64,000 nucleotides of DNA from Candidatus Aramenus sulfurataquae (GTDB lineage: Archaea; Thermoproteota; Thermoprotei_A; Sulfolobales; Sulfolobaceae): NCBI GenBank assembly GCA_000565255.1, contig ASRH01000001.1, positions 186,001 through 250,000 on the forward strand. Reading direction: 5' to 3'. Shown piece after piece: positions 8,055-49,631 of the stretch. The notes beneath the pieces were generated by a model. It was given only the letters and a program-made list of their open reading frames with translations, had not been told where the DNA came from and did not search any database. How positions within the stretch are numbered: position 1 is the stretch's first letter; every line of letters starts with the position of its first letter. Both the position numbers and the translations under genes were made by a program.

Positions 8055-9872
8055 TCACGTCCTCGAGAGGTCGTAATGACCTACTGGAGGAGGTACAGGG
8101 ACGCGAATTTTTACCCTACCTTCTCTTAACCAAGGAGAGATAATAAACGCGACTCCATTCCCTTCCCAGCTCAGAACCTTGGCTTCATTCCTTGAAAGTC
8201 CAAACAACTCAGCGATTTCTTGCCTTATTCTGAAGATAACCTTGGTGTTTGAAAGTTGTACAACTATGTCGTTTAGGTCGTTTGGGTTGTGGGTGGCGAA
8301 GATAAAACCTATTTTCCTCCTCCTTCCTAACCTCATCATTAACGAGATCTTGCTCGCTACTCTCCTGACGTAGTAGTTATCCTCTTCTCCACCCCTCATC
8401 GAGGGAAAGAACTTGTGGGCCTCGTCTATAACTATCAAATACCTGCCCTTGGCCTCCCCTTTCCTCAGCCTAGCCTCCCTTAAAGCAAATATCCTGTCAA
8501 GAATATAGTAGACGAAGATCTTCTGGGCTAGGTCATCCACTTCGCTATTATACAAGTCAAATACTACTATTTTCGCCCCTTTGTCCACGACTTTCCTTAT
8601 ACTACTCCTCTTCAGTTTGAGGTCGAACATCCCCGTTTCGAGGAGCAAGTAAAGTCCCCTTAGGATGTTTTCCCTGGTGCTCCTGTGCAATTTCATCTTC
8701 TCAAACACGTTGTCGTCCAACGCGTCCACGAACTCCCTTAACGTGTTAAGCTTGGCTAGCTCGCTCTTGGTAGTGATGATCTTCAGAAAGTGAGACCCTT
8801 GCTCGCTGAAGTAAGGGTTCAATTTGTACAAGATTCTCTTGACCGAACTGAACTTGAAAAAGAACGGGTGGACTGTTATTTTGGAACTCCAAGAACTACT
8901 CGAGATATTTATTGTATTGTCTACAATAGAGGTGTATAATTTTACTCCTTTTCTCTCCAAGTATGTTACCAACGGTTTTACGTAGAGATCATAGTACGTG
9001 CTCGTTATCTTATTTATAGAGTAATCTCCGCTAAGGTACTTCCTCAACCACCCCCTAGTCACTGGATAGACTACGTCCAGCTCTATTCCACTTAACTTGC
9101 CGTAGAGTTCCTCAAACGCCCTCACTCCTTCCATCACTTTCTTACTAGTAAAGTCAGGGGGCAGGAACATGTGATAGTAGTCTCCTGTGGTATCGAATAT
9201 GAATGCCTTGCTGCCTTCCTCGTCTAGCTTGTAAAGGCCTGACAACAAGTCCTTTATAAAAGACGTCTTTCCAGCCCCTGTTGTGCCCAGGATGAGGAAG
9301 TGGTAATTGAGTTCGTCTAGGCTCGTGCTCACCTTTACCCTTTCGCCTTCGATATCGAGGAACCCCAGCTTTAAACTCCCTGCGTTTATTCCTAGGGCCC
9401 TCTCAATCACCTCTGCCCTTGGTATTATGACCGGTGACTGGGGCTCAACTATTACGTCTGCGGGTTGAATTTCAGACGAAGAGAGGACGTCTAGCTTAGT
9501 GAGCATCTCGCATTTTATTACCACGTTGTTTATTAGAGTGCCAGGATTTTCCTCGTCCACTGAGGAAACTACTGGGGAGCCATCAAAGAGGTAGTTAGTG
9601 ACGTCGCTTCTCTCGTAACCTATTACCTTTAATAGGATGAAGTAGAGCGTCCTTATGTCTACTACTCCCAAGAAGATGCCTATCTTTCCCAGGAAGCTGT
9701 ACTTATAGTACACCTCTGGACTTACGACTACGTTTACTACGAACTGGTTCTCCTCCACCTTGTTAGGTATGTTTCGGGCTACGCTCCCTATAACGTCGCC
9801 TAATGTTACAGCAAGCGCTCTTGCCTTTTCCATCCTGTCCTTTATGCTGTTATAGAGCTCATCACTGCTCAT
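8055..9872 (-). CDS. HerA-family hexameric DNA translocase (pair 1)
   Basis: A 605-residue FtsK/HerA-superfamily ATPase. Walker A is GTTGAGKT at residues 196-203, and a Walker B of the form YLIVIDEAHKFFPS lies near residue 475, followed by the motif FIFATHNPNDL. The 190 residues before the P-loop are beta-rich and match the position of the HerA HAS-barrel. HerA hexamers pump dsDNA into the bound NurA nuclease. Its start overlaps the nurA stop by 4 bp, as expected for a stoichiometric complex. No mre11 or rad50 lies next to it, so it is probably not the canonical end-resection HerA. Confidence 0.85.
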   Translation of the reverse strand: MSSDELYNSIKDRMEKARALAVTLGDVIGSVARNIPNKVEENQFVVNVVVSPEVYYKYSFLGKIGIFLGVVDIRTLYFILLKVIGYERSDVTNYLFDGSPVVSSVDEENPGTLINNVVIKCEMLTKLDVLSSSEIQPADVIVEPQSPVIIPRAEVIERALGINAGSLKLGFLDIEGERVKVSTSLDELNYHFLILGTTGAGKTSFIKDLLSGLYKLDEEGSKAFIFDTTGDYYHMFLPPDFTSKKVMEGVRAFEELYGKLSGIELDVVYPVTRGWLRKYLSGDYSINKITSTYYDLYVKPLVTYLERKGVKLYTSIVDNTINISSSSWSSKITVHPFFFKFSSVKRILYKLNPYFSEQGSHFLKIITTKSELAKLNTLREFVDALDDNVFEKMKLHRSTRENILRGLYLLLETGMFDLKLKRSSIRKVVDKGAKIVVFDLYNSEVDDLAQKIFVYYILDRIFALREARLRKGEAKGRYLIVIDEAHKFFPSMRGGEEDNYYVRRVASKISLMMRLGRRRKIGFIFATHNPNDLNDIVVQLSNTKVIFRIRQEIAELFGLSRNEAKVLSWEGNGVAFIISPWLREGRVKIRVPVPPPVGHYDLSRT

Positions 9873-10981
9873 GTTCCCAGCTCCTCTATCCTACTGTAGT
9901 AACTGGACTGTAGCCCTACCTTCTGTAAACCGCTTATCACCAGCTTGTATAGGCCCTGTGACACCCTCTTTGCTACGGCGTCTGCTAGAGCGAGGAGGTA
10001 AGGTACCCCTTCCCTCGTTATCTTTATCGCCAGAAGGTTTCTAACCACGTCTTCAGAGTTGACCAAGCTCTCTACCCTAAGGATTGAGAACTTGGGTACA
10101 TAAGGATTAAACGGGATAACCAAGTAATTCACAAATATCCGAGTGTCTTTCTCCTCGCTCATGAAGGGGCCTATTACAGTAGGTGAGTAAGGTATGTTCT
10201 CGTTAAACCTGGTTAAGCTTAAGAGAAAGGCCTCGTCCGAGACAAACGACTTTGGGTCTACCTTGTATCTCTGTATAAAGAGATCTCGGTACTCGCCATT
10301 TAACGAGTTAACCAGGTATTGGGACTTGTCTATCCTTTTGACCACACCTACAAAGTTCTGGTCTAACGCCTTCCTTCTCTCCTCAATTATCTTGTCCTTA
10401 ACTTTGGCGCTTAAGTACAAGTAAGAAGGAAACAAAGGGCCGTCAATTATTACTGCCCCTTTCCCCTTGAGGAAGCTTAAAGCTCTCGTCTCCAGTAAAG
10501 CTCGTAACTCCGTCTCCACTTGCTCTACCCCCCTTATGGAGCTAAAGGGCCTCCCATCTAGCGAGACAAACGAAACGTAGTTGGAGGCGTAGATGTAGGG
10601 GTCAAGCCTAGATCGTTCCACCGTTGAAGAGGCTACAGCTATGAACGGCTCTTGTAGTGCCAGACCTCCTTTGCCATCCAGGGAGGGATAAACGCCGTAG
10701 ATCCCCCTCGTTATGGAGGCCACGGCCAAGCTAGCCATGCTTATTGAGCCCTTACCGGAAACGAAGCTCCTACTACTTCCGTCTAAAGCCAATACCTCGT
10801 CCCATGACCTCTTTGGTACCTCCTCCCTCACCAGTTCCTGTGGTTTTACAAGTGGTATCGCCACAGTATTTGGGCTTGGACTAACATAATCCTCGCTTAT
10901 GGAGGAGGAGTTAAGGTAACTGGAAATGAAGTTTATAACGTCATACCTAAGTACCTCGTAAATCCCGTGAATATGGGCCAT
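9869..10981 (-). CDS. NurA-domain nuclease (pair 1)
   Basis: A 370-residue protein with the NurA motif ALDGSSRSF, whose Asp67 would be a metal ligand, and a second acidic segment GAVIIDGPLF near residue 197. NurA is a dimeric RNase H-fold nuclease that works with HerA in DNA-end resection. The arrangement nurA-herA with a 4-bp overlap supports the pairing. The first 60 residues are less conserved-looking. Transcription probably starts from the AT-rich block just upstream. Whether this pair serves repair or defence cannot be told here. Confidence 0.82.
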   Translation of the reverse strand: MAHIHGIYEVLRYDVINFISSYLNSSSISEDYVSPSPNTVAIPLVKPQELVREEVPKRSWDEVLALDGSSRSFVSGKGSISMASLAVASITRGIYGVYPSLDGKGGLALQEPFIAVASSTVERSRLDPYIYASNYVSFVSLDGRPFSSIRGVEQVETELRALLETRALSFLKGKGAVIIDGPLFPSYLYLSAKVKDKIIEERRKALDQNFVGVVKRIDKSQYLVNSLNGEYRDLFIQRYKVDPKSFVSDEAFLLSLTRFNENIPYSPTVIGPFMSEEKDTRIFVNYLVIPFNPYVPKFSILRVESLVNSEDVVRNLLAIKITREGVPYLLALADAVAKRVSQGLYKLVISGLQKVGLQSSYYSRIEELGT

Positions 10982-43639: not shown

Positions 43640-44524
<885 letters not shown>

Positions 44525-46278: not shown

Positions 46279-48030
46279 TCAGCTTCCGTTTAATCCCCTT
46301 CTGAGCTCCTCTAAGTTGTTGTCGGCAGTGAAGAAGACAGGCACGTCATGAGGAAGAGCCGCCTTAAAGCTAACTAAAAGCCATTGCCCCACCTCTAGGT
46401 CAAGGGTCCTGTCCATTAGGGCGTCGTTTATTCCAAAGGTTTCCGCCACTAACTGCCTATCGTAGGGCCTAGGTAGCGTACTAATAAAGTAGGTGTGAAG
46501 TTGTTGTAACACGTTGGTATTTAAGTATGCTAGTCTCTGGGTGCTTATCAAGGCGTGGAGGTGGTACTTCCTGCCGTGCCTCAAGAGCTTCTCAATGGCG
46601 TTACTAGAGGACTCGCTCTTGTCCTTCTGCCTAGTGTCGAAGGGTATGAACTCCTGGGCCTCGTCTATGACGAAGAGCACTGGGGTAGCGGAGTAGAGCC
46701 TTTTCCTCCTACTCATCACCTCGTTGATCAGTGAGGCCACTATTCCCCTAGCCTCATCTATGTTGGGCAATTCGAGGACAAACAGCCTAGATGAAGAAGG
46801 AGACGAGTCAAGGACCTCTATTGCGAGCTTCTCTATGTCGTAGTCCTCTGTCTCTTGAATGGGCTCATTGAAATAAGCCTTCAGCCCCGACAAAAAGGAA
46901 AAGATGGTTGCGCTCTCCTTCAGGCCGCTAGACCTTGCCTCTTCCTCCACTTGGTCCAGTATCTGCGAGATCGAATCGTCTACTATGTCCTCTTTGCTTA
47001 GCTTCTTCTCCCTCATGAAGGAGTCCAACTTCTTCAGGAGTAACCCGAACAGGGGTTTCTGCGCGAAGGAAGTGTACTTATCGCTTATCTGGGCACTCAC
47101 CATGGCTAACAGATCCCCGTAAGTCAAGTACTGGAACTCTTCAGGGGGCACATAGAGGTGCCTCATCTTCGGATAAACGTCGACGGACGCTTGCCTAATC
47201 CTGTCCCTTAGGTCTGCCACCTCCTCAGGTATAACATGAGTTCTCAGGAACCTTCTAGCCCCTTCCTCTGGGGTGAGGGCTAGCCTTTCTGTGGTAACCA
47301 GCCTCGATTCGTGCTTCAGTAGTTGGTCCAACAATAGGACGGCATACTCCATCGAGATGTCCACCACGACGATCTTTACGTCCAAACTGCTCAAAGCCCT
47401 TCTTATCAGCAGAGACGTTAAATTGGACTTACCTGACCCAGTGAACGCGAACACTCCTATGTGGTAATTTATGGCTCTCCTTAGGTCGACTGTCAGTGGG
47501 ATGCCCTCACCTATTATCTCACCTATTTTTACTCCCTTCTCCTCGCAGACGAACTTCTTGAAGACCTCCTGGTTTAACACATGTACTGTAGAAGCAATCA
47601 ATGGAGGCACGTAACCCTTCTTGAACTTTACACCACCGTTAACCTCAAGTAAATAACCTATAGGATAAGCGTGCACTTCAATCCAAGCATTTGGGTCTTC
47701 GCTCCCCCAGTTCTCCTCCACCCTCCTCATCACCTCTTCCCTGATCTCCCTAGGTACTGACTGGTCTAGCTCTAGCATGCCATAGTGCATTGGCAGGAAG
47801 TCCACTACTTCGAGTAGTAAATAGGAGTTCTCCTCCATCGTCTTCACAGCCAAGAGCTTTCCTATGCTAAGCGCCTTCCCTGCTGTGAACGGCATCTCAA
47901 CCAAAAAACTCCTGAAGCTCACGAAACCCCTTCCATCAGCGGTCTGCCTAGTTAGTACCTTTACCTCCCTGAGTCTGCCCCTTATTTCCTCAAAAACGCC
48001 ATCCACTGTTCTTCGCCCTATGCTGTTCAA
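46279..48030 (-). CDS. HerA-family DNA translocase (pair 2)
   Basis: A 583-residue HerA/DUF87 ATPase: N-terminal beta-barrel, Walker A FTGSGKS at 196-202, Walker [15 protein letters not shown] near 470, then [12 protein letters not shown] and an arginine-finger-like [12 protein letters not shown]. It differs strongly from the HerA at 8055 in sequence and barrel. TTG at 48030 is supported by AGGAG five bases upstream; it lies 41 bp inside the nurA-like gene. Expected to form a hexamer driving DNA into its NurA partner. Confidence 0.85.
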
Positions 48031-48679
48031 TTAAACTCCTAAATTCCCTATATTTTAACGTCTTCCCCACGCCCAGCTCTACGGCCCTTTGCATCCTGTT
48101 CCTAAACAGCTTGACTACCTTGTCGGCCACGAAGAGTGGGTAGTTATAGCCCAACGCCTCTGGTATGGGATAGTTGCCACAAACGTAGAGGAGCGAGAGC
48201 ACTTCCTCGGAATTCTTGAAGTTTGTCTCTACCCTGAAGACCCAGCTAACCCTGTTGAGCTTGAAATAGCCTGTGGTCAGTTCCCCTTCCTTTTCCACCA
48301 GGAGCCAAGGGTACTCGTTAAACGTATCGTCAAGCTGTGCCCTTACCTTTGGGTCGAAGTCCTTCACTATCCCTATGGCGCGCTTAGGGACTGAGTACCC
48401 CTTCTCCGCGTCCATGGTCAGCTTCCTGTCCATGAGGACTACTTCAGCGTTAGAGGAATTAGCTAGCTCGTACTCAAGCCTCCGCATAGCTTCATCTCCT
48501 TGCCCCTCAACGAGATCGTCCTTAACGTCGTAAGAAGAGAACTTGAGTCTCTCCCCCTCCAGCGTAAAGTCTACCCTGGCCCCAACGACGTAGGAGAGGA
48601 CCCCCTCCCTCGTGTAAACCTCGTGGAGACTACCGTCCACGGCAGCTAGAGATAATTTAAAAGAGTGAACGGAGTTCAT
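47990..48679 (-). CDS. NurA-like nuclease (pair 2)
   Basis: A 229-residue protein with the NurA catalytic start [12 protein letters not shown] (Asp15), second acidic site [11 protein letters not shown] and the C-terminal motif [19 protein letters not shown] found in NurA dimers. It is shorter than the NurA at 9869. The frame continues upstream, but the ATG at 48679 leaves 7 bp to the divergent gene and puts the DGS motif near the N-terminus, where NurA has it. Coupled to the herA-like gene by overlap. Confidence 0.8.
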
Positions 48680-48686
48680 ATTCAAT

Positions 48687-49631
48687 TTGATAAAATTGGA
48701 AACCCCCATATCTCTGATTACTAATGTTCTCCTGCCGAATATAAGGGCTTTGGAGGCGAAGAGGCTAAGAACCATGAACATAAGCCAGACTAAGATAGCC
48801 TCCCTCCTAGGAGTCACTCAACCTGCAGTAAAGCAGTACTTAGACGTGAAGGAGGAGATATACTCGGAAAAGCTCAGGGAACTTGGCCTCAGCGACAAGG
48901 AAATCCAGGAGTTCCTAGACGAGCTTACCGAAATACTGCTAAAGAACAACGTCAAGGACACCATGTACTTTATGACCATGCAGGGCTTGAAGATGCTGAG
49001 CGAGCTTAAGTTCTGTAATTACCATAGGCGCGTCAACCCAACAATACCCCTGGACTGCAACATATGCGAGTCGTTTTACAGGGAGGACGAAGAGGAGGAG
49101 ATCTCATTAGCTATATCCATGTTGCAGAACGAAACAATTGGGCTTCTAATTCCAGAGGTACTTAGTAACATAGCTTTCTCCAAGAGGAACCCCCATGACG
49201 TGGCTGACGTGATAGCTGTACCCGGCAGGATAGCAAAGGTCAGGGGGTTACCTACTCCAGTATCTAAGCCGATGTGGGGAGGGAGTAGGCACTTGGCAAT
49301 CATACTCATTCACGTGAACAAGAGGTTCCCCAAGGTTAGGTCAGTCATGAATATAAAGTTCGATAAAAATGTGTTAGAGGCCATAAAGAGCGTAGGGCTG
49401 ACATACGTCGAAGTGGGACCAAGAGACTACGCTAGCGACGAGGAGATAGCTGAGGAAATAGCAAAAACCTACAACGGAGAAGACGCCGTTATACACTTGG
49501 GAGGTAAGGGAATCGAGCCGATAACCTACGTCTTTGGCTCAGGCCCATTAGAGGTAGCGAGAAAGGTAATAAACGTTTCCAGAAGGTATAGGGAGATATT
49601 AGAAGGGGAGGTTCAGCCAAAGAACACGTGA
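48687..49631 (+). CDS. ThiN-domain transcription regulator (ThiR-like)
   Basis: A 314-residue protein with an N-terminal helix-turn-helix (MNISQTKIASLLGVTQPAVK), a CxxH/CxxC-like cluster (CNYHRR ... DCNICESFY) and a C-terminal ThiN domain from about residue 150 (WGGSRHLAIILIHV, EPITYVFGSGPLEVARK). Archaeal HTH-ThiN proteins repress thiamine genes in response to thiamine phosphate. TTG start, 7 bp from the divergent NurA start. No thiamine genes lie here. Confidence 0.82.
   Translation: MIKLETPISLITNVLLPNIRALEAKRLRTMNISQTKIASLLGVTQPAVKQYLDVKEEIYSEKLRELGLSDKEIQEFLDELTEILLKNNVKDTMYFMTMQGLKMLSELKFCNYHRRVNPTIPLDCNICESFYREDEEEEISLAISMLQNETIGLLIPEVLSNIAFSKRNPHDVADVIAVPGRIAKVRGLPTPVSKPMWGGSRHLAIILIHVNKRFPKVRSVMNIKFDKNVLEAIKSVGLTYVEVGPRDYASDEEIAEEIAKTYNGEDAVIHLGGKGIEPITYVFGSGPLEVARKVINVSRRYREILEGEVQPKNT

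Follow-up and report, generated by a model that had tools for sequence, protein, structure and literature searches.

Two NurA-HerA gene pairs lie within the window, by which is meant the whole 64-kb stretch of DNA that was analyzed (G000:C1:186001-250000, from a 1.8-Mb Sulfolobaceae genome). In archaeal recombination, DNA ends are resected by the HerA-NurA machine, and the second pair (NurA2-HerA2, or pair 2) raises the question of whether it is a copy of the first, part of a defense or DNA-exchange system, or a machine with a history of its own. Pair 2 is a real, family-wide, uncharacterized variant of the known machine and not a new kind of system. Its family, fold, catalytic residues, fixed pairing, clade and distribution were established by computation.

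HerA2, a HerA/DUF87-family ATPase, is encoded on the reverse strand at 46279-48030 (583 aa from TTG 48030). The compact nuclease NurA2 was first read from ATG 48679 (47990-48679, reverse strand, 229 aa) in an open frame of at most 275 aa, and its divergent neighbor, an HTH-ThiN regulator (ThiR-like; 48687-49631, forward strand, from TTG 48687), matched Pfam ThiN at 2.3e-45 and featured weak N-terminal HTH-type matches. The sequence-only reading had described both ORFs, a 41-bp overlap between them and a 7-bp gap to the ThiN gene; these values are correct for starts at ATG 48679 and TTG 48030. The exact start sites of both genes are uncertain. That of NurA2 is most plausibly ATG 48709 (47990-48709, reverse strand, 239 aa), as judged from the alignment of the resulting “MGVSN” with the family's “GVSS/GVSN”; this start would overlap that of the ThiN gene instead of leaving the 7-bp gap. 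For HerA2, the alternative start GTG 48006 (575 aa) would suit the homologues better, and the overlap would then be 17 bp. Around 48679-48709 and in relatives of this locus, the 5′ ends of the ThiN and NurA2 genes divergently abut or overlap in most Sulfolobaceae, so either one of the starts is misplaced or the promoters are located within the adjacent coding region.

The Walker motifs of HerA2, a HerA-family ATPase, are intact. Its DUF87 domain was recognized by Pfam with an E-value of 1.6e-21 (77.9 bits vs. a cut-off of 23.2), and phmmer matched it to S. solfataricus HerA at 7.9e-14. In an alignment of 29 HerA2 sequences, the GxGKSN of Walker A (GSGKSN; 47425-47442, reverse strand) was invariant and its first Ser nearly so; in the 10-residue Walker B stretch (46651-46680, reverse strand), D455 E456 A Q E F were invariant. 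An AlphaFold2 model (pLDDT 82) was compared to known structures using Foldseek, and T. kodakarensis HerA, anti-phage HerA and S. solfataricus HerA were all matched with E-values of ca. 3e-20. The protein scored below the curated cut-offs of the canonical HerA equivalogs (69 vs. 800 and 56 vs. 970 bits for NCBIfam NF040937 and NF040819).

NurA2 carries a NurA domain (PF09376; E-value 4.4e-15, 56.3 bits vs. a gathering score of 21), and its phmmer match to SsoNurA reached an E-value of 0.16 only. The sequence-only reading had asked whether so short a protein folds as NurA at all. An AlphaFold2 model computed from 30 homologues (pLDDT 88, pTM 0.85) had S. solfataricus NurA (2ygk) as its top PDB match in Foldseek (E-value 4.1e-10); T. 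kodakarensis NurA chains came next, then endonuclease V. The protein therefore does fold as NurA, although with a TM-score of 0.54 over the query the match is partial, which its much smaller length would lead one to expect. Pair 2 resembles canonical HerA-NurA (4d2i, 2ygk; T. kodakarensis 9x1l-9x1n) in its two-protein architecture, in a DUF87 ATPase with Walker A and B motifs, and in the RNase H-like nuclease fold and acidic catalytic residues of NurA2.

The relationship of pair 2 to other pairs was examined phylogenetically. A tree was built from 98 HerA sequences. HerA2 from Sulfolobaceae and from TACK and Asgard archaea grouped in a single clade with an SH-aLRT of 100 and a stem of 1.5, separate from HerA1 plus HerA3 (SH-aLRT 100), from canonical HerA and from HerA6. 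The NurA tree (49 rows) mirrored this arrangement, with long and short NurA2 together (SH-aLRT 98) and NurA1, unlike NurA2, with NurA3 (98). Recent duplication of pair 1 to give pair 2, which the sequence-only reading had listed as a point to check, was rejected on the basis of these deep, separate clades. The diversification proposed in that reading is ancient, as the pair 2 clade spans TACK and Asgard archaea. Partners were also found to be fixed, another point raised there: across 14 Sulfolobaceae genomes, HerA1-NurA1 and HerA2-NurA2 always paired. HerA3, HerA6 and canonical HerA sat with their own NurA class apart from two gaps (HerA6 of G009 and one HerA3 of G017, neither of which had a partner of its own class in the stretch). 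The NurA-HerA pairs are co-inherited units. This principle was already reported for Pyrobaculum (Thermoproteales), where the phylogenies of several nurA-herA paralogue pairs run in parallel (PMC3396285); pair 2 is set beside those pairs by their published description, and is like them in that several co-inherited pairs occur per genome.

Pair 1 of the window (HerA1, 8055-9872; NurA1, 9869-10981, 370 aa) has its HerA in all 31 Sulfolobaceae genomes. It lies 35 kb from pair 2 here, ca. 75-85 kb away in genus g10 and ca. 0.6-1.3 Mb away in G003-G005; because the spacing varies, the closeness in the window is incidental. The two non-canonical pairs noticed in 64 kb are real and different from each other, but they are not a local feature. 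The genome encodes five NurA proteins, four of them non-canonical, and a canonical HerA-NurA set with mre11/rad50 is found on another contig (C3, L086). Pair 1 matches the PADLOC “Type III coevolved” HerA and NurA models (1.1e-44 and, for PDLC01056, 2.6e-16). Pair 2 shares with pair 1 a fixed, overlapping nurA-herA arrangement, core status in Sulfolobaceae and an Asp where canonical NurA has its C-terminal His.

Further sets were observed elsewhere in the same genome. A third non-canonical set on contig C6 (L087:6329-12705) comprises HerA6 (541 aa), NurA6 (351 aa), a 1017-aa protein that weakly matches P-loop NTPases and a 223-aa protein; this run is conserved in G003, G004, G005 and G017 and resembles a Rad50-like/HerA/NurA cassette. 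On contig C2 (L088:8483-11432), HerA3 and NurA3 are encoded on opposite strands, and their 3′ ends overlap by 20 bp. G004 and G005 show this arrangement too; the usual order is on the same strand.

HerA2 and NurA2 occur in one copy each in 30 of the 31 Sulfolobaceae genomes, and the single genome lacking them is 71% complete. Identities to the window proteins range from 53 to 98% for HerA2 and from 29 to 94% for NurA2. The nurA2 gene adjoined herA2, directly upstream, at 13/13 Sulfolobaceae loci (gap of −41 to +45 bp). Given its presence once per genome and this constant adjacency, NurA2-HerA2 is not a chance pair. Relative to the canonical mre11-rad50-herA-nurA cluster, pair 2 differs in that nurA lies directly upstream of and overlaps herA, in its separate deep clade, and in its lack of linkage to mre11/rad50, no such arrangement having been found in 13 genomes. 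The divergent order of ThiN, NurA2 and HerA2 genes was constant in these 13 genomes, even where the outer flanks were rearranged (G003, G006, G008). The genes around pair 2 are of the housekeeping kind; the neighborhood includes the ThiN regulator and genes for an MMPL transporter, a peptidase M50, a rhomboid and a NUBPL-type ATPase, with PCMT downstream in the one genome tested. The divergent ThiN link pointed out in the sequence-only reading holds within Sulfolobaceae (13/13 loci), but no ThiN gene was found next to the long NurA2 at loci outside the family. The adjacency is consequently weak evidence of shared function, which was not upheld; the regulator is treated as a conserved divergent neighbor and is probably not part of the NurA2-HerA2 machine. 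The literature searched yielded nothing useful on ThiR, nothing specific on a pair 2 paralogue in Sulfolobus or its essentiality, and no experimental work on the pair. A nucleotidyltransferase-like protein is encoded at 43706-44524, 2 kb from HerA2, and a relative of it matches NTP_transf_5. Its homologues lie divergently just upstream of the long NurA2 at four Nitrososphaeria loci (L167, L170, L174, L175); none was found within the 20-kb stretches read in other Sulfolobaceae genera.

Relatives beyond the family were sought among 84,980 species genomes using a HerA2 alignment as the query; a contig scan with a single protein as the query had given no match. They were found in Nitrososphaeria, Methanosuratincola (Methanomethylicia), Marsarchaeota, Bathyarchaeota and Geothermarchaeota and, among Asgard archaea, in Heimdallarchaeota, Jordarchaeum and Sigynarchaeota. 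NurA2 was located directly upstream of HerA2 at 66 of 74 non-Sulfolobaceae loci, commonly overlapping it by 29 bp. At five of the other eight, less than 430 bp of DNA is available upstream; in the remainder, NurA2 was 2.1 kb upstream (L212), HerA was broken (L182) or no partner was recognized (L180). The nuclease at these loci is typically 590-680 aa (ca. 600 aa) long. Its N-terminal motifs (D69, E154, D174) are followed by a large insert, by K367-D368 and by a C-terminal region that matches the last ca. 65 residues of the Sulfolobaceae protein, and this layout identifies the latter as a compact version. The distribution of HerA2 is patchy: it was present in 83 of the 398 genomes sampled from the phylum, absent from all 29 other genomes of the order, and found in no same-order or same-class genome of that sample outside Sulfolobaceae. 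This absence suggested horizontal transfer into Sulfolobaceae; neither transfer nor vertical descent with losses was established, and a careful tree of the HerA2 clade left the root unresolved (support 69/100).

Taken as a whole, NurA2-HerA2 represents a distinct, anciently separated HerA-NurA subfamily, probably a translocase-nuclease for double-stranded DNA, with housekeeping processing of chromosomal DNA ends or intermediates as its most likely role. A stronger version would make it a second ancient TACK/Asgard helicase-nuclease machine with an essential DNA-processing job of its own, replacing canonical HerA-NurA where that is missing and using a minimal nuclease in Sulfolobaceae. Some of the MAGs with HerA2 lacked a PF09376 match (three of 16) and matched canonical HerA only weakly; this would fit replacement of the canonical pair, but the genomes are incomplete. 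This version is considered tentative and rather doubtful.

A role in defense, in which HerA2 and a NurA2 nuclease effector degrade viral or plasmid DNA like HerA-effector anti-phage systems or type III CRISPR-linked NurA-HerA, is unlikely. HerA2 does score on PADLOC HerA models (best with PDLC01055, “Type III coevolved”, 2.9e-33), its fold is about as close to the HerA-DUF4297 and SIR2-HerA complexes as to canonical HerA, and a nurA-csm6-herA cluster of Pyrobaculum is CRISPR-linked (PMC3396285). However, such HerA-level matches are generic to the superfamily, and NurA2, unlike NurA1, matches no PADLOC model. Neither a CRISPR array in the window nor recognized defense genes around pair 2 were found; with NurA2 unmatched and no array, pair 2 falls outside the “Type III coevolved” type. 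A mobile or viral origin was likewise rejected, as no viral contig carried pair 2 and the scan returned two weak partial HerA matches only. Core status across the family, a single copy, a stable neighborhood and the lack of arrays in the window favor chromosomal DNA processing over defense.

That NurA2 is degenerate and inactive, and partners HerA2 only in a structural or regulatory capacity, is quite improbable. It is the smallest NurA in the analysis (ca. 240 aa vs. ca. 300-340 for canonical NurA) and lacks the N-terminal part. Nonetheless, the acidic set is retained. Profile alignment (hhalign) paired AVDGS with canonical AIDGG, the Glu of EYE with the canonical Glu, and LMDRKL with LMDGS. 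Asp25 (AVDGS; 48635-48637, reverse strand), which corresponds to the first catalytic Asp of the RNase H-like site, was invariant in 30 short forms and kept in 58 of 59 long forms; Glu79 (RRLEYE; 48473-48475, reverse strand) and Asp94 (LMDRKL; 48428-48430, reverse strand) were invariant in both. The comparison follows the residue-by-residue roles in SsoNurA. The D49A variant of T. kodakarensis NurA is dead, which lends experimental support to the role of the first Asp (PMC12977600). An 11-residue stretch of NurA2 was aligned with canonical GYPYPLLKVHF; Tyr190 is retained in Sulfolobaceae, and Asp196 (FVADK; 48122-48124, reverse strand) occupies the site of the C-terminal His (KVHFD). This position was Asp in 30/30 short and 59/59 long forms; His264 is invariant in the canonical class, and NurA1 and NurA3 also have Asp. 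The C-terminal Tyr and His are features of the canonical class, not of PF09376. Lys116-Asp117 and Asp196-Lys197 were invariant as well in the 30 NurA2 sequences. The three acidic residues and the K-D pair have thus remained near-invariant in a family that has diverged to about 30-40% identity, long forms included. What is non-canonical in NurA2 is its compact size and its signatures (DR where canonical motif III has DGS, and Asp for His), with the acidic D/E/D set intact. The invariant Asp and the missing N-terminal helices could still mean altered or lost activity, or a different stoichiometry.

Preparation of single-stranded DNA for the Ced/Ups system, or processing of the DNA it imports, is very unlikely: the HerA-like ATPases of Sulfolobales include CedB and CedD (PMC11868833) and NurA-HerA has been proposed to make single-stranded DNA for Ced transfer (PMC9905601), but the match of HerA2 to the CedD model NF053655 is weak (7.6e-14; 51 vs. 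a cut-off of 600 bits), no ced/ups genes were recognized near the family-wide locus, and pair 2 occurs in many lineages far from Sulfolobales.

For the preferred reading, a separate subfamily acting on chromosomal DNA, a mechanism may be drawn by analogy with the T. kodakarensis HerA-NurA cryo-EM structures (PMC12977600) and with S. solfataricus HerA-NurA (PMC5715905), in which double-stranded DNA passes through the HerA ring into the NurA dimer. HerA2 would form a ring that uses ATP to feed double-stranded DNA into NurA2; the nuclease would then cut this DNA at a metal-dependent RNase H-like site (Asp25, Glu79, Asp94). The N-terminal helices of the canonical NurA dimer intertwine (PMC5715905); NurA2 starts ca. 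24 residues ahead of the first catalytic Asp and so lacks them. As the Sulfolobaceae protein is also without the large central insert of the ca. 600-residue forms, dimer formation and strand separation would have to rely on the remaining C-terminal helices and HerA2. The mode of dimerization is the sharpest mechanistic question on NurA2. Together, the two genes most likely constitute a fixed housekeeping unit for repair-related processing of chromosomal DNA ends or intermediates.

Nearly every Sulfolobaceae genome thus has one more core HerA-NurA type, which has its own ancestry and is shared with Nitrososphaeria, Bathyarchaeota and Asgard archaea, with a nuclease less than half the size of that in those other archaea. 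A “HerA-NurA” match in Thaumarchaeota is therefore not automatically the canonical repair pair. The natural size series of NurA2 may reveal which parts of NurA are needed for dimerization and unwinding, and pair 2 in Sulfolobus/Saccharolobus offers a genetically tractable test of HerA-NurA outside the mre11-rad50 cluster.
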